NCBI RefSeq assembly: GCF_028747205.1
Contig: NZ_CP112880.1
Coordinates: 6,324,001-6,388,000 of the forward strand
DNA from: Streptomyces sp. CA-278952
GTDB taxonomy: Bacteria; Actinomycetota; Actinomycetes; Streptomycetales; Streptomycetaceae
Direction of reading: 5' to 3'
DNA: 64,000 nt
Positions 51,610-63,545 of the stretch are shown piece by piece. The notes beneath the pieces were generated by a model. It was not told the DNA's origin, ran no database searches, and saw nothing but the letters and a program-made list of their open reading frames with translations. Made by a program: the position numbers and the translations under genes. Within the stretch, counting starts at the first letter, position 1. Every line of letters begins with the position of its first letter.

Positions 51610-52596
51610 TCAGCCCGCCAGCACCCGGGCCCGGCAGGCGGACGGCGTCCCCCAGGCGTCCCGCAGCGGCCGGGCCCGGCGCAGCCACCACGCGAGGGCC
51701 AGCTCCTCGGTGTAGCCGACCGCGCCGTGCGACTGGAGCGCGGTGAGGGCCGCCGCGTACCCCGCCTCGCCCGCCGCCGCCTTCGCCGCCGCGACCGCCG
51801 CTCCCGCCCCGGCCGATCCGCCGGCCAACTCCACTGCCGCCCCGTACAGCAGCGGGCGCGCGAACTCCAGGCCGAGGAGGGTGTCCGCGAGCCGGTGCTT
51901 GACCGCCTGGAAGGACCCGACGGGCACCCCGAACTGGGTGCGCTGCTTCACGTACGCCACGGTCGCCCGCAGCAGCTCCTCCCCGCAGCCCAGCGCCAGG
52001 GCCGCTGTGGCGAACGCCGCCAGATCGCCCGCCGCCCGCGCCGCCTCGCGCACTGCGGGACCGGCCGCCGCCACCTCGCCGCCCGCCTCCGGCCGGAACA
52101 GCCGCCGCGCCGGATCAGCCGACGCCGACGGCTCCCCGGGTCCCGGCGCGAGCCGCAGTTCGTCGCCGTCCACCGTGAACACCGCGTCCGCCGCGTCCGC
52201 GTCCAGGGCGTACGGCCCGTGCCCCGCCAGCCGCAGCGAGACCACCGCCCCGCCGGAGGCGATCCGGGGCAGCCACTCCTCGGCCGCCGGTCCGCCGGCC
52301 CCGCCCAGCAGCATCCCGGCCGCCAGGGTCTCCGCCACGGGTCCGGGCACCGCGTGCCGCCCCAGCTCGACGCAGGCCACGGCCACCTCCACGGGGAGCG
52401 GCCCCAGGCCTCCGTACGCCTGGGGGACCGCGAGCGCGAACACTCCCGCGTCCGCGAGCCGCCCCCACAGGGCCAGCCCCGGCGCGTGGTCCCCGGCGGC
52501 CCACGCCCGCAGGACCGAGGGTGTGCCGGCCGCGTTGAGCATCGCGTCCAGCGACCGGGCGAACTCCCGCTGCTCGTCGTCGAGGAGGAAACGCAT
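51610..52596 (-). CDS. Acyl-CoA dehydrogenase, small FadE subunit type
   Basis: The 328-residue product is an acyl-CoA dehydrogenase with a full fold (MRFLLDDEQREFARSLDAML at the start, then VKQRTQFGVPVGSFQAVKHRLAD near 235) but shorter than usual. In steroid-degrading actinobacteria such short FadE proteins pair with a larger partner in alpha2-beta2 dehydrogenases (compare FadE31-FadE33). It is translationally coupled to the FadE30-like gene (stop and start overlap at 52596). It probably acts on a CoA-thioester of the ring C/D degradation pathway. The role is inferred from cluster context. Confidence 0.88.
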   Translation of the reverse strand: MRFLLDDEQREFARSLDAMLNAAGTPSVLRAWAAGDHAPGLALWGRLADAGVFALAVPQAYGGLGPLPVEVAVACVELGRHAVPGPVAETLAAGMLLGGAGGPAAEEWLPRIASGGAVVSLRLAGHGPYALDADAADAVFTVDGDELRLAPGPGEPSASADPARRLFRPEAGGEVAAAGPAVREAARAAGDLAAFATAALALGCGEELLRATVAYVKQRTQFGVPVGSFQAVKHRLADTLLGLEFARPLLYGAAVELAGGSAGAGAAVAAAKAAAGEAGYAAALTALQSHGAVGYTEELALAWWLRRARPLRDAWGTPSACRARVLAG

Positions 52597-53741
52597 CAGC
52601 GCCGTCCCTTCGGCAGGCCGAGCAGCCGCTCGGCGATGATGTCCCGCTGGATCTCGTTGGTCCCGGCGTACACGGGGCCCGCGAGCGCGAAGACGTACCC
52701 CTCCGCCCACGCCGTGTCCGCCAGCTCCGCGTCAGGGCCCAGCAGATCGAGCGCCGTCTCGTGCAGCGCGATGTCGTACGTCGACCAGAACACCTTGTTC
52801 AGACTGGACTCGGGTCCCAGCGACGTCCCCGCCGTGAACCGGGCCGCGGAGGCGGCGGTGAACAGCTGATACGCCCGCGCCCCGATCACCGCGTCCGCCA
52901 CCCGGTCCCGCAGCGCCGTGTCCGCCGGGTCGCCCGCCTCCCGCCACAAGGCCCGCAACCGGTCGGCGGCGGCCAGGAAGCGGCCGGGGGAGCGGAGGGT
53001 GAGGCCGCGCTCGTCGCCGGTGGCCGACATGGCGATGCGCCAGCCCTGCCCCGGCTCCCCGATGACGTCCGCGTCCGGTACGAAGACCTCGTCGAGGAAG
53101 ACCTCGGCGAACGCGGGCTTCCCGTCCAGCCGCCCGATGGGGCGGACCGTGACCCCGGGGTCCCGCAGCCCGAACATCAGATACGTGAGGCCCTGGTGCG
53201 GTCTCGCGGCCCCCGGGTCCGTACGGAAGATGCCGAAGGCCCGGTCCGCGAACGCCGCCCGCGAGGACCAGGTCTTCAGCCCCGACAGCAGCCAGCCGCC
53301 GTCCGTGCGCACCGCCCGCGACCGTAGCGCCGCCAGGTCCGACCCGGCCTCCGGCTCCGACCAGGCCTGCGCCCAGATGACCTCGCCGCTCGCCATCGGG
53401 GGCAGCACGCGGGCCCGCTGCTCCGCCGTGCCGTGGGCGAGGAGGGTCGGGGCGAGGAGGCTGATCCCGTTCTGCGAGACCCGGCCCGGCGCGCCCGCCG
53501 CCCAGTACTCCTCCTCGAACGCCAGCCAGCCGAAGAGATCCGCGCCCCGCCCCCCGTACTCCTCCGGCCAGGAGACCGCCGACCACCGGCCGGTGGCCAG
53601 CAGCGCCTCCCACCCCCGGTGCGCGGCGAACCCCTCCCCGGTCTCCAGGGAGGGCAGCGGCCGGGCCGGTACGTGGTCCCGGAGCCAGGCCCGGGCCTCG
53701 GCCCGCAGGGCTGCTGTCCGTGCCGTCTGCGCCAGATCCAT
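52596..53741 (-). CDS. fadE30: Acyl-CoA dehydrogenase, FadE30-like
   Basis: The 381-residue product follows the acyl-CoA dehydrogenase pattern: an N-terminal helical domain with WSAVSWPEEYGGRGADLFGWLAFEEEYWAA (52-82), the FAD-binding WAQAWSEPEAGSDLAALRSRAV near 122 and a C-terminal YAGTNEIQRDIIAERLLGLPKG. This last segment closely resembles mycobacterial FadE30, which lies beside ipdF and kstR2 in M. tuberculosis as here. It should introduce a double bond into a ring D-bearing CoA thioester. Its upstream gap carries the KstR2-like box. Start is the ATG at 53741. Confidence 0.88.
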   Translation of the reverse strand: MDLAQTARTAALRAEARAWLRDHVPARPLPSLETGEGFAAHRGWEALLATGRWSAVSWPEEYGGRGADLFGWLAFEEEYWAAGAPGRVSQNGISLLAPTLLAHGTAEQRARVLPPMASGEVIWAQAWSEPEAGSDLAALRSRAVRTDGGWLLSGLKTWSSRAAFADRAFGIFRTDPGAARPHQGLTYLMFGLRDPGVTVRPIGRLDGKPAFAEVFLDEVFVPDADVIGEPGQGWRIAMSATGDERGLTLRSPGRFLAAADRLRALWREAGDPADTALRDRVADAVIGARAYQLFTAASAARFTAGTSLGPESSLNKVFWSTYDIALHETALDLLGPDAELADTAWAEGYVFALAGPVYAGTNEIQRDIIAERLLGLPKGRR

Positions 53742-53800
53742 GAAGCGCCCGCCTTCCGTCCGGTCGGCACCGTCGCCGAGGCTTCCCGTTCCCCATGTTC

Positions 53801-53820
53801 CCTAACAAGTGTTTGGTAGG
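53801..53820. promoter_or_regulatory. KstR2-like operator between fadE30 and the SDR gene
   Basis: The central AACAAGTGTTTGGT (53804-53817) fits the published KstR2 motif AnCAAGnnCTTGnT at all but one fixed position, and outer CCTA/TAGG arms extend the symmetry. The site is in the 123-bp gap between divergent promoters, so one repressor could block both. Confidence 0.75.
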
Positions 53821-53864
53821 TTAACGTACGGTCCACAGACCGTCGAGAAGCCGGGGGCCGGGCC

Positions 53865-54647
53865 ATGGACACACCGCCGTACCTGCCGGGACACGGACTG
53901 CTGGCCGGCCGCGCCGCCGTCGTCACCGCCGCCGCCGGAGCCGGGATCGGCGGTGCCACTGCCCGCCGCTTCCTGGAGGAGGGCGCCCGCGTCGTGATCG
54001 GCGACGCCCACGCCCGCCGGCTGAAGGAGAGCGCGCGCGCCCTCGCCGACGAGTTCGGCACCGACCGCGTCACCCACCTGACCTGCGACGTCACCGACGA
54101 GGACCAGGTCGAAGCCCTCTTCTCCCACGCCGAACGCGCCCACGGCGGCCTCGACATCGTCGTCAACAACGCCGGCCTCGGCGGCACCGCCGAACTCACC
54201 GAGATGACCGACGACCAGTGGACGAGGATCCTCGACGTCACCCTGAACGGCACGTTCCGCTGCACCCGCGCCGCCCTGCGCTCCCTCAAGGCCGCCGGCA
54301 CCGGCGGAGTCCTCGTCAACAACGCCTCCGTCGTCGGCTGGCGCGCCCAGCGCGGCCAGGCCCACTACGCCGCCGCCAAGGCGGGCGTCATGGCCCTCAC
54401 CCGCTGCGCCGCCGTCGAGGCCGCCGACTACGGCGTACGCGTCAACGCCGTCGCCCCCAGCCTCGCCATGCACCCCCACCTGGCCAAGGTCACCTCCGCC
54501 GAGCTCCTCGCCGAACTCACCGGGAAGGAGGCCTTCGGCCGGTACGCCGAACCCTGGGAGGTCGCCAACGTGATCGTCTTCCTCGCCAGCGGCTACTCCT
54601 CGTACATGACCGGCGAGGTCGTCCCCGTCAGCAGCCAGCATGCGTGA
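53865..54647 (+). CDS. ipdF: Short-chain dehydrogenase/reductase, IpdF-like
   Basis: The 260-residue SDR has the NAD(P)-binding TAAAGAGIGGATARRFLEEGARVVIGDA (about 21-48), NNAGLGG near 102, the catalytic Ser in NNASVVGW near 151 and Tyr-Lys in HYAAAKAG near 164-170. It sits between a FadE30-like dehydrogenase and a KstR2-like regulator, the position of Rv3559c/ipdF in M. tuberculosis. That enzyme oxidises the 5-hydroxyl of the steroid ring C/D fragment. The exact assignment is by synteny. Confidence 0.85.
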   Translation: MDTPPYLPGHGLLAGRAAVVTAAAGAGIGGATARRFLEEGARVVIGDAHARRLKESARALADEFGTDRVTHLTCDVTDEDQVEALFSHAERAHGGLDIVVNNAGLGGTAELTEMTDDQWTRILDVTLNGTFRCTRAALRSLKAAGTGGVLVNNASVVGWRAQRGQAHYAAAKAGVMALTRCAAVEAADYGVRVNAVAPSLAMHPHLAKVTSAELLAELTGKEAFGRYAEPWEVANVIVFLASGYSSYMTGEVVPVSSQHA

Positions 54648-54689
54648 AGGGATGCGTGAACACACCGGCCCCGGGCGGACAATGGCCGG

Positions 54690-55301
54690 GTGCCTACCAA
54701 GAAGAAGCCCCAGGTGACCCCCACGCCGGAGCGACGCCGTGAACTGCTCGCCACCGCCGCCGAGGTCTTCGCCGCGCAGGGATACAACGCGACCACCGTC
54801 CGCCGGATCGCGGACGAGGCAGGGATGCTCGCGGGCAGCCTCTACTACCACTTCGATTCCAAGGAATCGATGATCGACGAGATCCTCTCCACCTTCCTCG
54901 ACGAGCTCTGGCGGGGCTACGACACGGTCCTGGAGGCCGGCCTCGGCCCCCGCGAGACCATCGAGGCCCTGGTCACCGAGTCCTTCCGGGAGATCGACCG
55001 GCACCGCCCCGCCGTCGCGATCTACCAGAAGGAGTCCAAGCACCTCGCCACCCAGCCGCGCTTCGCCTACCTCGTCGACTCGCAGACGAAGTTCGAGAAG
55101 GCCTGGCTCGGCACCCTGGAACGCGGCGTCGCCGAAGGCGCCTTCCGCGACGACCTCGACATCCGCCTCACCTACCGCTTCGTCCGCGACACCGTCTGGG
55201 TCGCGGCCTCCTGGTACCGGCCCGGCGGACACCACAGCCCCGAGGAGATCGCCCGTCAGTACCTCTCGATGGTGCTCGACGGAATCGCCCTGCGTACGTA
55301 A
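54690..55301 (+). CDS. kstR2: TetR-family repressor, KstR2-like
   Basis: The 203-residue product has an N-terminal TetR helix-turn-helix (RRELLATAAEVFAAQGYNAT, then TVRRIADEAGMLAGSLYYHFDSKESM, about 16-61). Its ligand domain resembles mycobacterial KstR2 in distinctive segments: YQKESKHLATQPRFAYL (about 110-126), DLDIRLTYRFVRDTVWVAA and YRPGG near 175-180. KstR2 releases DNA when it binds HIP-CoA. Two matching boxes occur in this window. Start is the GTG at 54690. It lies between the SDR and fadA6 genes, as in actinobacterial HIP clusters. Confidence 0.87.
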   Translation: MPTKKKPQVTPTPERRRELLATAAEVFAAQGYNATTVRRIADEAGMLAGSLYYHFDSKESMIDEILSTFLDELWRGYDTVLEAGLGPRETIEALVTESFREIDRHRPAVAIYQKESKHLATQPRFAYLVDSQTKFEKAWLGTLERGVAEGAFRDDLDIRLTYRFVRDTVWVAASWYRPGGHHSPEEIARQYLSMVLDGIALRT

Positions 55302-55343
55302 CCGGAAACCGGTCCATCCCGAGCGCACCGAGGAGCAGCAGCC

Positions 55344-56501
<1,158 letters not shown>

Positions 56502-56797
56502 GCACCCCCCGGCCCTTGCCGGGCCCCGCCCGTGGACCCCGGCGGCCCCGCTCGTACACCCTCTGGTCAGCCAAGCTTTCCCTCCGGCGGTGCGGCGCGC
56601 TCCGCCGCCCGAGGAGAGGGCGTGCTAGGATGTTTCCCGTTGCAGTTTTGGTACCCATGAACTTTATGTGCGCCTGACGGGAATGCTTCCTCAGGCGCTT
56701 TATTGTTTTCCGGCTTTCTCCGGGTGGGGCTCAATGCGGCGACTTGGAATCCGTAAAGTGCGGGTTCTCGGCACTGCACCTCTTTTAGGAGAATGAC
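56502..56797 (+). promoter_or_regulatory. Long cspA leader with hairpin attenuator
   Basis: The 296-bp gap before cspA contains TAGGAT at 56626-56631 as a possible -10 element and a hairpin (56670-56677 with 56691-56698, plus inner GGAA/TTCC) followed by TTTATTGTTTT. A tiny frame, ATG at 56657 to TGA at 56675-56677 (MNFMCA), ends inside the hairpin. The structure resembles a transcription attenuator or cold-responsive leader. A Shine-Dalgarno AGGAG lies at the end. The region is locally AT-rich for this genome. Confidence 0.6.
56670..56711 (+). terminator. T-tailed hairpin in the cspA leader
   Basis: GCGCCTGA at 56670-56677 pairs with TCAGGCGC at 56691-56698. Inner GGAA-TGC-TTCC extends the stem, and TTTATTGTTTT follows. 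It is a textbook intrinsic terminator placed about 90 bp before the cspA start, so it may end the fadA6 transcript, regulate cspA, or both. Confidence 0.8.
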
Positions 56798-57001
56798 ATG
56801 GCTACTGGAACCGTGAAGTGGTTCAACTCGGAAAAGGGCTTCGGCTTCATCGAGCAGGACGGCGGCGGCGCCGACGTCTTCGCCCACTACTCCAACATCG
56901 CCACCCAGGGCTTCCGTGAGCTCCAGGAGGGCCAGAAGGTCTCCTTCGACGTCACGCAGGGCCAGAAGGGCCCGCAGGCGGAGAACATCGTCCCGGCCTA
57001 A
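56798..57001 (+). CDS. cspA: Cold-shock protein
   Basis: The 67-residue product is a complete single cold-shock domain that binds single-stranded RNA and [21 protein letters not shown] with RNP1 KGFGFIEQ, and RNP2 DVFAHYSNI, ending [11 protein letters not shown]. It begins at an ATG preceded by TTTTAGGAGAATGAC, a strong ribosome-binding site. A terminator follows and the next gene is a DEAD-box helicase, a common cold-adaptation pair. Its leader can fold into a hairpin. Confidence 0.97.
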
Positions 57002-57024
57002 TTGCCGGACGCGTACCTCGCTGA

Positions 57025-57060
57025 CCGGGGCCCGCACCGTGAAGGTGCGGGCCCCGGTTT
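57025..57060 (+). terminator. Terminator of cspA
   Basis: A perfect 14-bp stem (57025-57038 with 57044-57057) around a GTGAA loop, followed by TTT, lies 23 bp after the cspA stop. Confidence 0.88.
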
Positions 57061-57198
57061 GTGCTGTCCGAGCGACAACCCGTCGCAACAACCCGTTCTG
57101 TGCGCACATCCTGGGGGCGCACCCGGACGGTCGGGTCGGCACATCGCAGTAAACCCATTCGGCAGTTGCCCAGGAATCCCCCAGGAGGGCAATTCCGT

Positions 57199-58848
57199 AT
57201 GACCAGCTCCGAACGCCAGGACCGCACCCCCCGCTCGCGACCGGCCCGTGGCCGAGGCCGCGGCCAGGGCGCAGGCACCCAGGCTCCCGCGAACGGCCGG
57301 GGCGGCGCACCCCGCTCCAAGGCCCAGGGCAGCTCCAAGCCCCCGGCCCGCCGTCGCGCCACCCCGCCGCAGGGCGAGTTCGCCCTGCCGGAGACCGTGA
57401 CCCCCGCACTGCCCGCCGTCGACGCCTTCGCCGACCTGGACATGCCCGCCGGGCTGCTGAAGACCCTCACCGCCCAGGGCGTCACCGAGCCGTTCCCGAT
57501 CCAGGGCGCGACCCTGCCGAACTCGCTGGCCGGCCGCGACATCCTCGGCCGCGGGCGCACCGGCTCCGGCAAGACGCTCGCCTTCGGCCTGGCGCTGCTG
57601 GCCCGTACCGCCGGGCGCCGCAGTGAGCCGCGCGCACCGCTCGCCATGGTCCTCGTGCCCACGCGTGAGCTCGCCCAGCAGGTCACCGACGCGCTGACCC
57701 CGTACGCGACCGCCGTGAACCTGCGGATGGCCACGGTCGTCGGCGGCATGTCGATCACCAAGCAGTCCGCCACCCTGCGGCGCGGCGCCGAAGTGCTCGT
57801 CGCCACCCCGGGCCGGCTCAAGGACCTCATCGAGCGCGGCGACTGCCGCCTGGACGAGGTCTCCATCACCGTCCTCGACGAGGCCGACCAGATGGCCGAC
57901 ATGGGCTTCATGCCGCAGGTCGTCGCCCTGCTCAAGCAGGTCGAGGCGGACGGGCAGCGGATGCTGTTCTCCGCGACCCTCGACAAGAACATCGACCGGC
58001 TCGTGAAGATGTTCCTCACCGACCCGGTCGTGCACTCCGTCGACCCGTCCGCCGGCGCGGTCACCACGATGGAGCACCACGTGCTCCACGTCCTGGACGA
58101 GACCGACAAGAAGGCCGTCGCCACGAAGATCGCCGCCCGCGAGGGCCGGGTGATCATGTTCGTCGACACCAAGCGCGCCGCCGACCGCTTCGCCAAGCGG
58201 CTGCTCGCCAGCGGTGTACGGGCGGCCGCCCTGCACGGCGGACGTTCGCAGCCGCAGCGCAACCGGACGCTCGACCAGTTCAAGAACGGGGAGGTCACCG
58301 CGCTCGTCGCGACGAACGTCGCGGCCCGCGGCATCCACGTCGACGACCTCGACCTGGTCGTCAACGTGGACCCGCCGACCGACCACAAGGACTACCTCCA
58401 CCGCGGCGGCCGCACGGCGCGCGCCGGGGAGTCCGGCAGCGTCGTCACGCTGGTGCTGCCCGAGGAGAAGCGCGAGATGACCCGGCTGATGCAGGACGCC
58501 GGCATCGCGCCGCGCACCACGCGGGTCACCTCCAGCGACGCGGAACTGGGCCGGATCACGGGGGCCCGCGAGCCCTCGGGCGTCGCGATCGTCATCGAGG
58601 TGCCGCAGCCGACTCCGCCGAAGCAGCGGACCCGGTCGGGCGGCGCGGCGGGCGGCACCGGCGGGGGCGCGGTGCGGTCCGGCAGCCGGGGACGCGGACG
58701 GCGAGGCACCGGTACGGGTGCCGGGGCCGGCGGTGCCGGTGGCGGCGCGGCACGCTCCGGAGGGGCTGCGCGCGCCGGTGGCGGTGCGGCGCGCTCCGGT
58801 GGCGCAGGCCGCTCCGGCGCGCCCGCGCGGGGGCGTCGGGCCGCGTAG
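57199..58848 (+). CDS. DEAD-box ATP-dependent RNA helicase
   Basis: The 549-residue product has a basic, disordered N-terminus (PRSRPARGRGRGQG), the RecA-like core with Q motif (EPFPIQGATLP near 97), Walker A GRTGSGKT with Lys125, motif Ia PTRELAQQ near 154, the DEAD box at 227-230, SAT and the C-terminal helicase motifs VATNVAARGIHVDDLDLVVN and HRGGRTARAG. The last 80 residues are Gly/Arg/Ala repeats, an RNA-binding tail. ATG 57199 is chosen because AGGAGG lies about ten bases upstream. Together with cspA it suggests RNA remodelling in the cold. Confidence 0.95.
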   Translation: MTSSERQDRTPRSRPARGRGRGQGAGTQAPANGRGGAPRSKAQGSSKPPARRRATPPQGEFALPETVTPALPAVDAFADLDMPAGLLKTLTAQGVTEPFPIQGATLPNSLAGRDILGRGRTGSGKTLAFGLALLARTAGRRSEPRAPLAMVLVPTRELAQQVTDALTPYATAVNLRMATVVGGMSITKQSATLRRGAEVLVATPGRLKDLIERGDCRLDEVSITVLDEADQMADMGFMPQVVALLKQVEADGQRMLFSATLDKNIDRLVKMFLTDPVVHSVDPSAGAVTTMEHHVLHVLDETDKKAVATKIAAREGRVIMFVDTKRAADRFAKRLLASGVRAAALHGGRSQPQRNRTLDQFKNGEVTALVATNVAARGIHVDDLDLVVNVDPPTDHKDYLHRGGRTARAGESGSVVTLVLPEEKREMTRLMQDAGIAPRTTRVTSSDAELGRITGAREPSGVAIVIEVPQPTPPKQRTRSGGAAGGTGGGAVRSGSRGRGRRGTGTGAGAGGAGGGAARSGGAARAGGGAARSGGAGRSGAPARGRRAA

Positions 58849-58857
58849 GGCCATCAG

Positions 58858-58994
58858 TTCCAGCCGTCCGGCGATTGAGGTCCGGGCTCATATCCAGCCC
58901 GTCCGGCGATTGAGGACCGGGGCCCGGGGCAGAGCCCCGAAAGCCCCGGGCCGATGTGGCCGAGGTCTTGTCCTCAAACGCCGGACGGGCTGGA
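58858..58994. repeat. Three copies of the dispersed palindrome between helicase and ipdC
   Basis: Direct copies with core CCGTCCGGCGATTGAGG lie at 58858-58881 and 58894-58918. An inverted copy lies at 58970-58994. The last two can pair as arms of a long stem enclosing another G+C-rich hairpin (58918-58953). The inverted copy encodes the last residues and stop of the minus-strand ipdC gene. Confidence 0.75.
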
Positions 58995-60071
58995 TAGGGG
59001 CTCGGGCTCGGGCCCACGTGGCCGGGGCAGGTCGACCAGAAGTGCGCGAGCCGTCTCCGCCTCGGCCATGACCCGGTCCACCAGCTCCGCCACGCTCGGC
59101 AGGTCCTCGATCAGCGCCGCGACCTGGCCCGAGGCCATGATGCCGAGGTCCGTGCGGCCGTCGACCATCGCCGCCCTCAGCAGCATCGGGGCGTTCGCCG
59201 CCAGCAGCACCTGGCTCCAGGTCAGCTCCTTGCCGTGCCGCATCGCCAGGCCGTCGCGGACCATGCCCGGCCAGCTCAGGCCGGAGATCCGGCGGAAGCC
59301 GGACGCCCGGCGCAGCGCCCGGTACAGGGAGCGCAGCCGGCCCGCACTCTCCAACTCCGCCACCATCTCCGTACGGAGCATCCGGTGCGGGAGGCCGTCC
59401 ACCGCCCTCGTCAGGGTGATGTCCTTGGCGGTCGCCGCCAGATAGCGGGCCTTCACCGCGTTCGGGACCGTCGAGTCCGAGGTCAGCAGGAACCGGGTGC
59501 CCATCGCGACGCCCGCCGCCCCGTACGCCAGCGCCGCCACCAGGCCCCGGCCGTCGTGGAAGCCGCCCGCCGCGACCACCGGGATGTCCACCGCGTCGAC
59601 GACCTGCGGCAGCAGCACCGTGGTGGCGACCTCGCCGGTGTGGCCGCCGCCCTCGCCGCCCTGCACGATCACCGCGTCCGCGCCCCACGCCGCGACCTTC
59701 TCCGCGTGCCGCCGGGCCCCCACCGACGGGACGACGACCACGCCCGCGTCCCTGAGCTCCGCGATCAGCTCCCTCGACGGGGCGAGCGCGAACGACGCCA
59801 CCCGCACGCCCTCCTCGACCATGATCCGGACCCGCTCCCGGGCGTCCCCCGCGTCCGCCCGCAGATTCACCCCGAACGGCGCGTCGGTCCGGGACTTCAC
59901 CTCCCGTACGGCCGCACGCAGGTGGTCCGGTGACATGGTCGCCGACGCGAGGATGCCGAGCGCCCCGGCCCGCGCGGTCGCGGTGACCAGGCGGGGGCCC
60001 GCCACCCAGCCCATTCCGGTCTGCACGATCGGGTGCCGGACACCGACGAGGTCGGTCAGGGCGGTGCGCAT
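58974..60071 (-). CDS. ipdC: Flavin-dependent nitronate monooxygenase-like oxidoreductase, IpdC-like
   Basis: The 365-residue FMN barrel has VGVRHPIVQTGMGWVAGPRLVTATARAG (9-36), a VIVQGGEGGGHTGEVATTVLL flavin-phosphate segment near 137, VVAAGGFHDGRGLVAALAYGA near 167 and MGTRFLLTSDSTVPNAVK. Despite the nitronate monooxygenase label, mycobacterial IpdC acts on a CoA-thioester of the steroid ring C/D fragment, and this product matches its distinctive HRMLRTEMV and RDGLAMRHGKELTWSQV stretches. It overlaps ipdB by a base. The last five or six residues come from a dispersed repeat, so the native C-terminus was probably altered. Confidence 0.88.
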   Translation of the reverse strand: MRTALTDLVGVRHPIVQTGMGWVAGPRLVTATARAGALGILASATMSPDHLRAAVREVKSRTDAPFGVNLRADAGDARERVRIMVEEGVRVASFALAPSRELIAELRDAGVVVVPSVGARRHAEKVAAWGADAVIVQGGEGGGHTGEVATTVLLPQVVDAVDIPVVAAGGFHDGRGLVAALAYGAAGVAMGTRFLLTSDSTVPNAVKARYLAATAKDITLTRAVDGLPHRMLRTEMVAELESAGRLRSLYRALRRASGFRRISGLSWPGMVRDGLAMRHGKELTWSQVLLAANAPMLLRAAMVDGRTDLGIMASGQVAALIEDLPSVAELVDRVMAEAETARALLVDLPRPRGPEPEPLSSPSGV

Positions 60072-60820
60072 CAGGAACGGACCTCCCGGTCCCGGGTGCG
60101 GGCCGGGTCGACGACCTCGCGGATCAGCGAGAGCTCGGTCGGGGAGGGGGCGCGGGTGTACGGGACGTCGTCCGGGACCGTGAGCGCGAAACCCGTCGCT
60201 TCCCGGACCTGGTCCACCGTGACGCCGGGGTGGACCGAGGCGAGGCGCATCGAACGGTCGGGCGTCGCGAAGTCGAAGACCCCGAGATCGCTGACGACCC
60301 GGGGGATGCGGTGGAAGCGGGTGGCGGAGGGGCCCGCCGCCCTCGCGCTGTCGTGGCCGACCCCGCAGATCATGTCGACGCGCCCGACGAAGACCCGGGG
60401 GGAGTGCCGGGGGATCCAGTAACTCACCGGGTTGTTCAGGGTGTTGACCGGAGCTCCGCGTACACCCAGCAGCTGCCGCGAGGGCTGTTCCCAGTCGCCG
60501 ATGCAGGAGATGTTCTGGTTGCCGAAGCGGTCGATCTGGCTCGCGCCCATCATCACGTGCCGCCGCCCGCCGGTCACCAGCGCCAGATGCCTTCGGTAGG
60601 GCAGCCAGCCCTCCGCCACACCGTCCGGGCCGACGAGCGTCGCCTCGCCGTCCGTGAGCAGCAGCTCGGGGGCGAAGGTCAGCCGGGCCAGCCGCGCGCC
60701 GGCCGACGGCACGGCACCCATCGGGCTGGCCAGGATCTCGCCGTCGCCCCGCCACGCCTCGGCGCACGCGATCACGCAGTACTCGGCACGGGTGATGCCT
60801 CCGGTCGCGGACGCTTTCAT
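60071..60820 (-). CDS. ipdB: CoA-transferase family ring C hydrolase, beta subunit IpdB-like
   Basis: The 249-residue protein is a family I CoA-transferase-like subunit. Segments shared with mycobacterial IpdB include GARLARLTFAPELLLTDGEA (40-59), GGRRHVMMGASQIDRFGNQN near 83, RQLLGVRGAPVNTLNN near 113 and the C-terminal VVDPARTRDREVRS. IpdA and IpdB together hydrolyse ring C of the COCHEA-CoA intermediate and lack true CoA-transferase activity. The ATG at 60820 overlaps the ipdA stop as ATGA, consistent with subunits of one complex. Confidence 0.9.
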   Translation of the reverse strand: MKASATGGITRAEYCVIACAEAWRGDGEILASPMGAVPSAGARLARLTFAPELLLTDGEATLVGPDGVAEGWLPYRRHLALVTGGRRHVMMGASQIDRFGNQNISCIGDWEQPSRQLLGVRGAPVNTLNNPVSYWIPRHSPRVFVGRVDMICGVGHDSARAAGPSATRFHRIPRVVSDLGVFDFATPDRSMRLASVHPGVTVDQVREATGFALTVPDDVPYTRAPSPTELSLIREVVDPARTRDREVRS

Positions 60821-61707
60821 TTCTGCTCCTGGTGCCAGGTGCGGACCGCCTGCTGGTAGCCCTGCTCGTCGCCGTCCGGCGGCAGGAAGCGGGCTGCGAA
60901 CTCCGCCCAGGCCGCCGGGTCCGCCGCCGCGGCCGCGTACGCCTTCTGGAACGGCTCGTCACGCGGGTGGTCGGGTACGCAGGACGTGAAGTGCGCCCCG
61001 CCCGGAGTCTCCACCACACCGGTGACCGCATGCCGTTGAACGAGGAGGGTCTGCGGGGCGGTGGCGTTCCCGGTCAACTCCGGCGTCCGCACGATGCGTT
61101 CGCAGGAGACGTACGCCGCGTCCGCCGCTTCGCAGAAGAGGTCGTCGAAGTACGGGTCGGGGCCCAGGTACTGGCCGTTGCCGAGCCGGTCCGCCCGGTT
61201 GAGGTGGACCAGCGCCGCGTCCATCCGCAGGGCCGGCGCCGCCACGAACTCCTCGCCGTCCTCGTACGGTGAAGTCACCGTGCGCAGCTCAGGGTTGACC
61301 CGCATCACATCCGAGCCGATGCCCGCGCGAACCGGCAGGAACGGCAGCCGGTTCGCCGCCGCGTGCAGCCCCCACATGAACATCGCCTCGTCGATCTCCG
61401 TCAGCGCGAACGCCCCGCGCTGCCGGGCCGCCCGGTAGTGCGGCTCCAGCGGGATGGAGTCGAGCGTCACGAACGCCGTGACCAGACGGGCGATCCGGCC
61501 CGCCGCGGCCAGCAGCCCCACGTCCGGGCCGCCGTAGGAGATCACCGTAAGATCGGTGACGGGCGACCGGAGCAGCGCCCTGACCAGGGCCATCGGCTTG
61601 CGGCGCGACCCCCAGCCGCCTATCCCGATGGTCATGCCGCTGCTCAGCCGGTCGACGACCTCCTCGGGTGTCATTGTCTTGTCGCGTGGATGAGGGGGAG
61701 CGGTCAC
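60817..61707 (-). CDS. ipdA: CoA-transferase family ring C hydrolase, alpha subunit IpdA-like
   Basis: The 296-residue product matches mycobacterial IpdA in the segments LSSGMTIGIGGWGSRRKPMA (16-35), LTVISYGGPDVGLL near 54, ANRLPFLPVRAGIGSDV near 113, DPYFDDLF near 183 and GVVETPGGAHFTSC. It starts at the GTG at 61707, 3 bp after the echA20 stop, or at an in-frame ATG 33 bp later. With IpdB it opens ring C of the steroid residue. This pair is the most specific marker of the HIP pathway in the cluster. Confidence 0.9.
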   Translation of the reverse strand: MTAPPHPRDKTMTPEEVVDRLSSGMTIGIGGWGSRRKPMALVRALLRSPVTDLTVISYGGPDVGLLAAAGRIARLVTAFVTLDSIPLEPHYRAARQRGAFALTEIDEAMFMWGLHAAANRLPFLPVRAGIGSDVMRVNPELRTVTSPYEDGEEFVAAPALRMDAALVHLNRADRLGNGQYLGPDPYFDDLFCEAADAAYVSCERIVRTPELTGNATAPQTLLVQRHAVTGVVETPGGAHFTSCVPDHPRDEPFQKAYAAAAADPAAWAEFAARFLPPDGDEQGYQQAVRTWHQEQK

Positions 61708-61710
61708 GGT

Positions 61711-62454
61711 TCAGGCCTCCTTGCCGAAGGTGTCGCGGACCCGGGCGGCGGTCCCGGCGAGGTTCGCCTCAAAGGTGAACCCCTGCTCGAAGCGGTAGCT
61801 GCGCTGTACGTCGACGGGGTCGATGCCGTTCAGTGCGGCTTTCGCGAGCCGCAGCAGATGGCCGTCCTTGGCGGCGATCTCGGTCGCCAACTCCAATGCT
61901 GCATTGGTCAGCTCATGGGCCGGGACCACCCGCCAGACGGAACCGTGGGCGAGCAGCTCGGCCGCGGTGACGGTGCGGGAGGTGTAGTACAGCGTGCGCA
62001 TCAGGTGCTGTGGTACCAGCCGGGCCAGGTGGGTCGCGGCGCCGAGTGCGCCCCGGTCCAGCTCCGGAAGGCCGAAGACCGCGTCCTCGCTCGCGACGAT
62101 CGCGTCGGCGTTCCCGACGAGTCCGACCCCGCCGCCCAGGCAGAACCCCTGCACCGCCGCGACGACCGGGACCTCGCACGTGTACACCGCCGCGAACGCC
62201 TCGGCGCAGCCACGGTTGGCGCCGATCAGGGCCTCGTGCCCCGTATCGCGCTGCAATTCCTTGATGTCGGCGCCCGCGTTGAAGCCGCGCCCGGCGGCGG
62301 CCAGGACGACGCAGCGGACCCCGGGGTCGCGGCCCGCCGCCCGGACGGCGTCCGCCAGGTCGTACCAGCCCTGCACGGGAAGCGCGTTGACGGGGGGACG
62401 GTCCACGGTGACGACGCGGACGCCGTCCGAGGGGCGGGCGGTGGAGACACTCAT
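61711..62454 (-). CDS. echA20: Enoyl-CoA hydratase family ring D hydrolase, EchA20-like
   Basis: The 247-residue crotonase has the oxyanion segments GRGFNAGADIKELQRDTGHEALI (about 65-87) and QGFCLGGGVGLVGNADAIVASEDAVFGLPE (about 113-142), then RGALGAATHLARLVPQHLMR, closely following mycobacterial EchA20 and of the same length. EchA20 cleaves ring D of the intermediate before IpdAB acts. Start is the ATG at 62454. It is the first minus-strand gene beyond the second KstR2-like box, and leads the echA20-ipdA-ipdB-ipdC transcript. Confidence 0.92.
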   Translation of the reverse strand: MSVSTARPSDGVRVVTVDRPPVNALPVQGWYDLADAVRAAGRDPGVRCVVLAAAGRGFNAGADIKELQRDTGHEALIGANRGCAEAFAAVYTCEVPVVAAVQGFCLGGGVGLVGNADAIVASEDAVFGLPELDRGALGAATHLARLVPQHLMRTLYYTSRTVTAAELLAHGSVWRVVPAHELTNAALELATEIAAKDGHLLRLAKAALNGIDPVDVQRSYRFEQGFTFEANLAGTAARVRDTFGKEA

Positions 62455-62473
62455 CGGAGGATCAGCTACCTTT

Positions 62474-62495
62474 CCACCAAACATTTGTTAGGTGG
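62474..62495. promoter_or_regulatory. Second KstR2-like operator between echA20 and the SDR gene
   Basis: On the minus strand the centre reads AACAAATGTTTGGT, two mismatches from the KstR2 motif AnCAAGnnCTTGnT, flanked by CCACC/GGTGG arms that give a 22-bp near-palindrome. It shares 15 of 16 core bases with the box at 53801-53820 and lies in the 158-bp divergent gap. Confidence 0.72.
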
Positions 62496-62612
62496 ACGGT
62501 AGCAGTCCCGCCCCCGGGCGCCAACCGGCCGTCTACCGGTCGCCTACCGGTCGTCAATTGGCCGCCAACGGGCTGCCGGCCGTCAGTAAGCCGTCGATCA
62601 TGGGGAGATGAG

Positions 62613-63545
62613 ATGACCGCACCCATCGCACGCCGTGCCGGACTCTGCGCGGACCGGGTCGTCGCCGTCACGGGCGCCGGGCGGGGGCTCGGCCGGGCCC
62701 ACGCCCTGGCCTTCGCCGCCGAAGGGGCGCGCGTCGTCGTCAACGACCTCGGCGTCGGACCCGACGGGGACGGGGGCTCCGCCGGCCCGGCCCGGGAGGT
62801 CGTCGACGAGATCGTGGCGGCGGGCGGCGAAGCCGTCGTCCACGGCGGCGACATCGCCACGGCCGAGGGCGCCGCCTCCCTGGTCACCACCGCCGTGGAC
62901 GCCTTCGGCCGCCTCGACACCCTGGTCAACAACGCGGGCTTCCTGCGCGACCGGATGCTCGTCAACCTGGACGAGGACGACTGGGACGCGGTGATGCGGG
63001 TCCACCTCAGGGGCCACTTCCTGCCCCTCAAACACGCCGCCGCCCACTGGCGGGCCGAGACGAAGGCGGGGAGGGCGCCGGTCGCCCGGGTGATCAACAC
63101 CAGCTCGGGCGCCGGACTCCTCGGCAGCGTCGGCCAGGGCAACTACGCGGCGGCCAAGGCCGGAATCGTGGCCCTGACCCTGGTCGCGGCGGCCGAGCTG
63201 GGCCGGTACGGGGTCTGCGTCAACGCCCTCGCCCCGGCCGCCCGGACCCGGATGACCGAGCGGACCTTCGCCGAGACGATGGCGGCCCCGGGGGCGGGGG
63301 AGTTCGACGCCATGGCCCCCGCGAACGTCTCGCCCCTGGTCGTCTGGCTCGGCTCCGCCGCGAGCGAGGGGGTGACGGGCCGCGTCTTCGAGGCCGAGGC
63401 GGGCCGCATCACCGTTATGGAGGGCTGGCGCCCGGGCCCCACCGACGACCGGGGCGCGCGCAGGTCCCCGGCCGAGGCGGGCGAAACGGTGCGTCGGCTG
63501 CTGGCCGACGCGGAGGAACCGGGGCGGGTCTACGGGGCGTCCTGA
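62613..63545 (+). CDS. Short-chain dehydrogenase, Rv3548c-like
   Basis: The 310-residue SDR has TGAGRGLGRAHALAFAAEGARVVVND (20-45) for NAD(P) binding, NNAGFLRDRML near 109, Ser in INTSSGAGLLG near 157 and Tyr-Lys in GNYAAAKAG near 171-177. The 50 residues beyond the core are shared with the larger SDRs of the hydroxysteroid-dehydrogenase-4 type. It is divergent from echA20 across a KstR2-like box, as Rv3548c is in M. tuberculosis. Start is the ATG at 62613 with GGGGAGATGAG upstream. The exact substrate is not known. Confidence 0.85.
   Translation: MTAPIARRAGLCADRVVAVTGAGRGLGRAHALAFAAEGARVVVNDLGVGPDGDGGSAGPAREVVDEIVAAGGEAVVHGGDIATAEGAASLVTTAVDAFGRLDTLVNNAGFLRDRMLVNLDEDDWDAVMRVHLRGHFLPLKHAAAHWRAETKAGRAPVARVINTSSGAGLLGSVGQGNYAAAKAGIVALTLVAAAELGRYGVCVNALAPAARTRMTERTFAETMAAPGAGEFDAMAPANVSPLVVWLGSAASEGVTGRVFEAEAGRITVMEGWRPGPTDDRGARRSPAEAGETVRRLLADAEEPGRVYGAS

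Follow-up and report, generated by a model that had tools for sequence, protein, structure and literature searches.

The closest described counterpart of the locus analyzed here is the KstR2 regulon, or catabolon, of Mycobacterium and Rhodococcus for methylhexahydroindanedione propionate (HIP), the C/D-ring fragment of steroids (PMC5380842, PMC3068626). The side chain of HIP-coenzyme A (CoA) is shortened to give 5-OH-HIC-CoA, which IpdF and IpdC convert to HIEC-CoA; ring D is then hydrolyzed by EchA20 and ring C by IpdAB, and MOODA-CoA, the substrate of FadE32, arises through FadA6 or another thiolase (PMC5380842). KstR2 binds the motif AnCAAGnnCTTGnT; its three intergenic binding regions include Rv3549c-Rv3550, between a short-chain dehydrogenase/reductase (SDR) gene and echA20, and Rv3560c-Rv3561 (PMC3068626). 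An earlier note, made from the letters alone, had proposed a cluster of this type in a 64,000-nucleotide stretch of Streptomyces sp. CA-278952 DNA (contig NZ_CP112880.1, positions 6,324,001 to 6,388,000; hereafter the window). Comparative analysis indicates that the ten catabolic genes at window positions 51610-63545 probably form a KstR2-controlled catabolon for HIP or a close bicyclic acid, in a genome where no ring A/B pathway was detected.

The ten genes are all present, with open reading frames and high third-position GC, and lie in three blocks: fadE31-fadE32 on the minus strand, ipdF-kstR2-fadA6 on the plus strand, and echA20-ipdA-ipdB-ipdC on the minus strand, with a second SDR gene (SDR2) diverging from echA20 (Table 1). 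The strain shares with the Mycobacterium and Rhodococcus regulons IpdF, KstR2, FadA6, IpdC, IpdB, IpdA, EchA20, FadE31 and FadE32, SDRs of the Rv3548c and Rv3549c types, and the placement of operators between echA20 and the SDR gene and between the divergent fadE and the next operon. Every protein of the published steps IpdF, IpdC, EchA20, IpdAB, FadA6 and FadE32 is encoded here. Unlike those regulons, the window cluster is without FadE30, FadD3 and the companion enoyl-CoA hydratase (Ech), its Rv3549c-type SDR appears relocated, its predicted operator cores lie one to two bases off CAAGnnCTTG, a cold-shock gene and a DEAD-box helicase gene are inserted, and ring A/B genes were not detected. 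Nineteen further Streptomyces loci, fetched via IpdA, repeat the gene set, which excludes a chance grouping. FadA6, IpdC, IpdB, IpdA and EchA20 were called in all 19, KstR2 and SDR2 in 18 each, IpdF in 17, FadE31 in 14 and FadE32 in 7, counts that are lower bounds because the gene caller overlooks some genes in these stretches of at most 20 kb.

The gene set listed in the earlier note (acyl-CoA dehydrogenases, SDRs, a TetR-type regulator, a thiolase, a nitronate monooxygenase-like protein, CoA-transferase-like subunits and a crotonase) is therefore real, and its assignment to KstR2-type C/D-ring degradation is upheld by orthology, gene order and a palindromic operator. The names it had given for KstR2, FadA6, IpdC, IpdB, IpdA and EchA20 also stand, at 52-70% identity to the Rhodococcus and Nocardia reference loci against which all cluster proteins were measured. 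The note held that best hits to unrelated families would speak against the assignment. This is not what is seen for IpdA and IpdB, whose best PDB matches are 6co6, 6coj and 6con (expectation values, E, of 6.5e-96 and 6.3e-84; next families, 6e-22 and 6e-15), or for KstR2, whose top match, 2ibd, is titled "possible transcriptional regulator" and whose matches 4w97 and 4w1u are KstR2 entries. PDB matches are not specific for EchA20 (generic enoyl-CoA hydratases), IpdC (FabK-type reductases) and the FadE proteins (other acyl-CoA dehydrogenases), and these names consequently rest on orthology and gene order. IpdF, FadA6, EchA20 and SDR2 exceed their NCBIfam cut-offs, but the family names are generic.

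One further name did not hold. The large dehydrogenase, taken for FadE30 in the earlier note, is 63-66% identical to FadE31 in all six reference loci that contain it, versus 36-43% to FadE30 in 22 loci; FadE30 was thus rejected, and the pair is of the FadE31 and FadE32 type. These names follow the gene order in Table 1 of PMC5380842: in the Rhodococcus and Nocardia reference loci L045, L066 and L108, fadE30 is followed by fadD3, the enoyl-CoA hydratase gene and fadE31, and loci L145-L148 extend the order as FadD3-Ech-FadE31-FadE32-FadE33. The small dehydrogenase has one standout in each of four reference genomes (47-50% identity, E 5e-69 or better; runner-up, 1.6e-23) and scores only 112 bits on the IpdE2 model (cut-off 450). 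Elsewhere in Streptomyces, FadE30 is patchily kept beside the ipd cluster (L127, L195), as is the fadD3-adjacent enoyl-CoA hydratase (L117, L119, L126, L202).

Both divergent promoters of the cluster contain a palindrome predicted to be a KstR2 operator. The first, CCTAACAAGTGTTTGGTAGG, separates fadE31 from ipdF; the second, CCTAACAAATGTTTGGTGGA, lies between echA20 and SDR2, in the position of the proven Rv3549c/Rv3550 site (PMC3068626). The core of the first (CAAGTGTTTG) departs from the published one by a single base, that of the second (CAAATGTTTG) by two. For echA20 we prefer the start at 62454, as the alternative upstream ATG at 62484 falls inside the operator. Each of the 19 fetched Streptomyces loci contains two copies of an extended site, matching at 15-19 of 19 positions and adjoining the corresponding genes as far as these were called; in L119 and L122 the second site is the divergent CCTAACGTTTGTTTGGTACG. 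Of 199 Streptomyces genomes, 138 contain an exact match to a wider pattern, CTAACAANNGYTTGGT, and none contains one to the backwards control. IpdA was present in 136 of these 138 and in 0 of the 61 genomes without the pattern; all 136 IpdA-positive genomes checked carry it. The two genomes with the pattern and no IpdA match, G144 and G168, have one exact operator match each, and their clusters are possibly decayed or incomplete.

In the strain's own genome CTAACAANNGYTTGGT is matched exactly three times, twice in the cluster and once at 677613, 193 bases upstream of an SDR gene (L158:9822-10616). The ten best matches of this SDR among the fetched loci are echA20-adjacent Rv3549c-type SDRs of mycolata and Streptomyces (50-56%), and it is precisely this gene that is not found next to echA20 in the window cluster. 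The Rv3549c-type SDR therefore appears, from these sequence relationships, to have moved away while keeping its predicted operator. A third operator match is also found in genomes G066, G115, G126, G127 and G178, and in G259 a relative of the relocated SDR (73%) adjoins SDR2 and a FadD3-family gene.

That the window holds no fadD3 and no ring A/B genes, as the earlier note had stated, is borne out. In the genome as a whole HsaC gave no match; the HsaC family matched, below its cut-off, in one of 14 control genomes. The sole KshA_C match, at 336940 (77-78 bits, above the Pfam cut-off), is a distant Rieske protein; it was rejected as KshA, being 26% identical to the KshA of Streptomyces genome G278, which scores 298 bits. 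G278 is an example of the complete steroid cluster of some Streptomyces, which has the same ipd genes in the same chromosomal place together with a ring A/B operon that is absent at this place here. Directly after SDR2, the G278 operon encodes a hydratase in the place of HsaE (below cut-offs) and an acetaldehyde dehydrogenase and an aldolase in the places of HsaG and HsaF. It also includes KshA, a ferredoxin, a reductase, HsaA (614 bits) and HsaD (457 bits), both above their cut-offs, and HsaC-like and KstD-like proteins, both below theirs. The operon stops before two genes, one for a trypsin-like protease, whose products are 63% and 83% identical to those of genes 2.4-4.3 kb past SDR2 in the window genome; in L118, SDR2 and the first of these downstream genes are about 120 bases apart. 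The A/B operon may have been either gained or lost at this junction.

Across the genus, IpdA is present in 277 of 392 Streptomyces genomes (E 1e-30). None of the 392 passes the NCBIfam cut-off for HsaC (450 bits), and 100 match at E 1e-40. Because the neighboring HsaA and HsaD of G278 exceed their own cut-offs, proteins scoring 330-387 bits were accepted as HsaC-like (38 genomes), and the remaining 62 genomes (148-290 bits) were excluded. All 38 are IpdA-positive, and in at least 13 of them the HsaC-like and ipd sites lie within 18 kb. The other 239 IpdA-positive genomes have no HsaC-like protein at or above 330 bits.

No fadD3 was found near the cluster: an AMP-binding search has no match between 6242874 and 6717652, and the open reading frames inspected over the 7.5 kb that follow the cluster encode other proteins. 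Queried with Nocardia FadD3, the genome yields one standout (519 bits; next, 250), which lies near 3.22 Mb. This FadD3-family ligase (3222718-3224268), 3.15 Mb from the cluster, scores 843 bits on an NCBIfam model with a cut-off of 657. Nocardia FadD3 itself scores 771 bits on the same model, below the window-genome ligase, and the family is accordingly broad. When 26 ligases were placed in a tree, mycolata FadD3 grouped with the ubiquitous copies of Streptomyces and with three copies from HsaC-positive Streptomyces, to the exclusion of five other FadDs. A second FadD3-family gene is present in 31 of the 38 HsaC-like genomes. The unlinked ligase is a candidate for the activation of HIP or a like acid.

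The neighbors of the ligase are an Ltp2-like protein of the thiolase fold (Ltp), a DUF35 protein with both ChsH2 Pfam domains (OB/zinc-ribbon) and a crotonase, and the Ligase-Ltp-ChsH2-Ech block was found in all six neighborhoods examined, the strain's own and five others. Among PDB entries the Ltp is closest to 6ok1 (titled "Lipid-transfer protein"; E 8.5e-100), which we take to be the Ltp2 aldolase. The putative Ltp and ChsH2-domain pair beside the ligase thus resembles the Ltp2-ChsH2 steroid side-chain aldolase. A MaoC hydratase accompanies the Ltp2-ChsH2 system; the 3.22 Mb locus, unlike it, has a crotonase-type Ech in that place.

The ligase and the ipd cluster co-occur. At E 1e-160, where some weaker matches may be the paralogue, the FadD3-family ligase is found in 270 of the 392 genomes, namely 266 of the 277 IpdA-positive and 4 of the 115 IpdA-negative ones; three of these last four are just 78-79% complete. 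Kinship was taken into account with an rpoB DNA tree of 80 hand-picked genomes from G000-G198 (43 of the 63 IpdA-negative and 37 of the 136 IpdA-positive ones, among them five of the eight that have IpdA but no ligase, and G105, with the ligase but no IpdA), with the orientation of the rpoB sequences set by shared words. IpdA changes state 17 times on this tree (15-18 in bootstraps) and the ligase 19 times (17-20). Over nine independent pairs differing in IpdA (starred branches), the ligase differs in the same direction in 7.5 on average and never in the opposite one (median sign-test p 0.008, range 0.008-0.06). Contrasts based on the ligase (12 pairs) gave 7.7 in the same direction, 0 opposite and 4.3 without difference. 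As the ligase follows IpdA in independent contrasts and never opposes it, kinship alone is unlikely to account for the coupling of these unlinked loci. HsaC-like proteins showed no significant contrast with either the ligase (median p 0.5) or IpdA (median p 0.125).

The ring-opening orthologues, the predicted operators, the co-occurrence of IpdA and ligase, and the genome searches that found no match to HsaC, KstD or a close KshA together support a KstR2-controlled C/D-ring catabolon. In the mechanism we propose, the FadD3-family ligase at 3.22 Mb is the most likely enzyme to turn a bicyclic acid into the CoA ester; the acid would come from outside the cell, since no enzyme was found that opens rings A and B. 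The ester would then free KstR2 from the two cluster operators and from the one before the relocated SDR. Shortening of the propionate side chain would fall to FadE31, FadE32 and the SDRs, and preparation of the ring to IpdF and IpdC; EchA20 and IpdAB would hydrolyze rings D and C, respectively, and FadA6 thiolysis of the product would lead to acetyl-, propionyl- and succinyl-CoA.

Several observations weigh against this proposal. fadE30 is absent from the cluster (the rest of the genome was not searched for it), as is the enoyl-CoA hydratase that adjoins fadD3 in the reference loci. The cluster has no FadE33 (IpdE2) either; the best candidate in the fetched stretches, at 3.23 Mb and about 10 kb beyond the ligase, is 38.6% identical to FadE33 and scores 203 bits on the IpdE2 model (cut-off 450). 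No KstR2-like operator was found at the ligase locus, and in the ligase tree mycolata FadD3 and the ubiquitous Streptomyces copies are separate supported clades. The published operator core is poorly discriminating by itself: at one mismatch it has 21 matches in the window versus 8.6 expected, finding the first site and missing the second. A narrower pattern searched in the strain's genome with two mismatches gave one extra match, but also two in the backwards control, which puts this level at background; the extra match, at 5670654, was not counted, and its neighbors show no related genes by eye. Of the genome-wide searches the earlier note had called for, the one for fadD3 was successful insofar as a family member lies 3.15 Mb away. 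Those for the ring A/B enzymes HsaC, KstD and KshA detected none beyond the distant Rieske protein, with the KstD search (E 1e-10, Streptomyces KstD query) made without an independent positive control and with HsaA and HsaD not searched for.

Other explanations share part of this evidence. That an ordinary beta-oxidation or aromatic-acid cluster was misread as Ipd is highly improbable: such a misreading would fit the PDB matches of EchA20, IpdC and the FadE proteins, and among the 120 IpdA relatives listed (of 7990 found) those with names, all from Streptomyces (S. griseus, 95%), do carry generic CoA-transferase names, but the scores of IpdA, IpdB and KstR2 far exceed those of other families and the gene order is that of the reference loci. 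We also consider it improbable that a complete steroid pathway once occupied this locus and that the cluster is what is left of it, now in decay. The G278 operon does sit between SDR2 and homologues of this strain's downstream genes, and FadE30, Ech and the SDR are patchily kept between strains; against decay stand the intact cluster, an operator pattern without exception in the IpdA-positive genomes checked, an SDR that appears to have retained its operator when it moved, and an unlinked ligase that tends to be gained and lost with the cluster.

The unlinked locus admits a further explanation, in which the module has been retooled. The ligase, Ltp2-like aldolase, ChsH2-like (DUF35) partner and enoyl-CoA hydratase would serve as a dedicated front end for a bicyclic acid that is non-steroid or bears a side chain (a terpenoid, or a C/D fragment with a C17 chain). 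This front end would shorten the side chain, and the ipd cluster would finish the product. The constancy of the four-gene block, the match of the Ltp to 6ok1, both ChsH2 domains in its partner, the way the ligase follows IpdA across the genus and a ligase clade separate from mycolata FadD3 all argue for it. Against it, the ligase locus has no KstR2-like operator, and the second FadD3-family gene in most HsaC-like genomes means that roles may differ; on balance we regard it as rather doubtful. A broader form is possible, and we put it forward tentatively: in most Streptomyces a pathway of two loci would operate uncoupled from the degradation of rings A and B. Ligase, Ltp2/ChsH2-like aldolase and hydratase would prepare a bicyclic isoprenoid acid, both rings of which would be opened by the KstR2-controlled ipd cluster. 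Were this so, Streptomyces would be C/D-ring finishers of soil steroid and terpenoid turnover, overlooked by surveys based on ring A/B markers.

One such survey is the genome-wide profiling of cholesterol and cholate pathway genes by Bergstrand 2016, which included Streptomyces and reported no pathway for 55 of the 57 genomes of this genus (PMC4810484). Its pathway call needed six of eight nucleus-degrading enzymes, KshA and HsaC among them (PMC4810484), and a genome with C/D-ring genes only would be invisible to this design. As Kendall 2010 describes kstR2 and its regulon as highly conserved among actinomycetes (PMC3068626), kstR2 outside the mycolata is not new as such. In the open-licence PMC papers searched we found no description of a C/D-only module in Streptomyces. 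The parts and biochemistry are known; what appears new is their genus-wide separation from the ring A/B genes, together with the ligase-aldolase locus coupled to them. If the catabolon we favor works, a very common soil genus would finish the bicyclic remains of steroids or terpenoids, and the unlinked ligase-aldolase locus would be a concrete candidate for its missing entry point.

Table 1. Features of the cluster, in window coordinates. Percentages are amino acid identities; operators are predicted.
Feature	Position	Strand	Evidence
FadE32-type acyl-CoA dehydrogenase (small)	51610..52596	-	47-50% to single best orthologue per reference genome (n=4)
FadE31-type acyl-CoA dehydrogenase (large)	52596..53741	-	63-66% to FadE31, 36-43% to FadE30
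KstR2-like palindromic operator CCTAACAAGTGTTTGGTAGG (predicted)	53801..53820	.	between divergent fadE31 and ipdF; core 1 base off published motif AnCAAGnnCTTGnT
IpdF (SDR, 5-oxo/5-OH HIC-CoA)	53865..54647	+	64-65% to reference IpdF; NF005880 449 bits, cut-off 336
KstR2 TetR-type repressor	54690..55301	+	best PDB matches 2ibd, 4w97, 4w1u; 54-58% to reference loci
FadA6 thiolase	55344..56501	+	66-70% to reference loci; NF005865 701 bits, cut-off 591
Cold-shock protein (inserted, probably unrelated)	56798..57001	+	PF00313, 108 bits
DEAD-box helicase (inserted, probably unrelated)	57199..58848	+	PF00270; no open reading frame between fadA6 and ipdC in L123, L129, L130, L131
IpdC flavin-dependent reductase (NMO/FabK fold)	58974..60071	-	63-65% to reference IpdC; PF03060
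IpdB, COCHEA-CoA hydrolase beta subunit	60071..60820	-	PDB 6co6_B, E 6.3e-84; 52-56% to reference loci
IpdA, COCHEA-CoA hydrolase alpha subunit	60817..61674	-	PDB 6co6_A, E 6.5e-96; 54-55% to reference loci
EchA20 crotonase (ring D hydrolase)	61711..62454	-	65-66% to reference EchA20
KstR2-like operator CCTAACAAATGTTTGGTGGA (predicted, minus strand)	62473..62492	.	between echA20 and SDR2; core 2 bases off published motif
Rv3548c-type SDR (SDR2)	62613..63545	+	65-67% to reference SDR; NF005861 486 bits, cut-off 373

The cold-shock and DEAD-box helicase genes that separate fadA6 from ipdC in the window (56798-58848) were not mentioned in the earlier note. A helicase gene was called at this place in 13 of the 19 Streptomyces loci; a long unlabelled open reading frame takes its place in L124 and L125, and fadA6 directly adjoins ipdC in L123, L129, L130 and L131. 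One fetched record, L102 (Kitasatospora arboriphila NRRL B-24581 contig6.1), has an IpdB 85% identical to that of R. jostii RHA1 and a mycolata-like gene order, unlike the Streptomyces clusters; it may be mislabelled, contaminated or the result of a recent transfer. Among 72,556 plasmid records, 32 have an IpdA match (E 1e-30). IpdA homologues with 75-78% identity are found on two Streptomyces replicons, NZ_CP081497.1 and NZ_CP108854.1 (2.8 and 1.5 Mb), and others on large Sphingobium and Novosphingobium plasmids.

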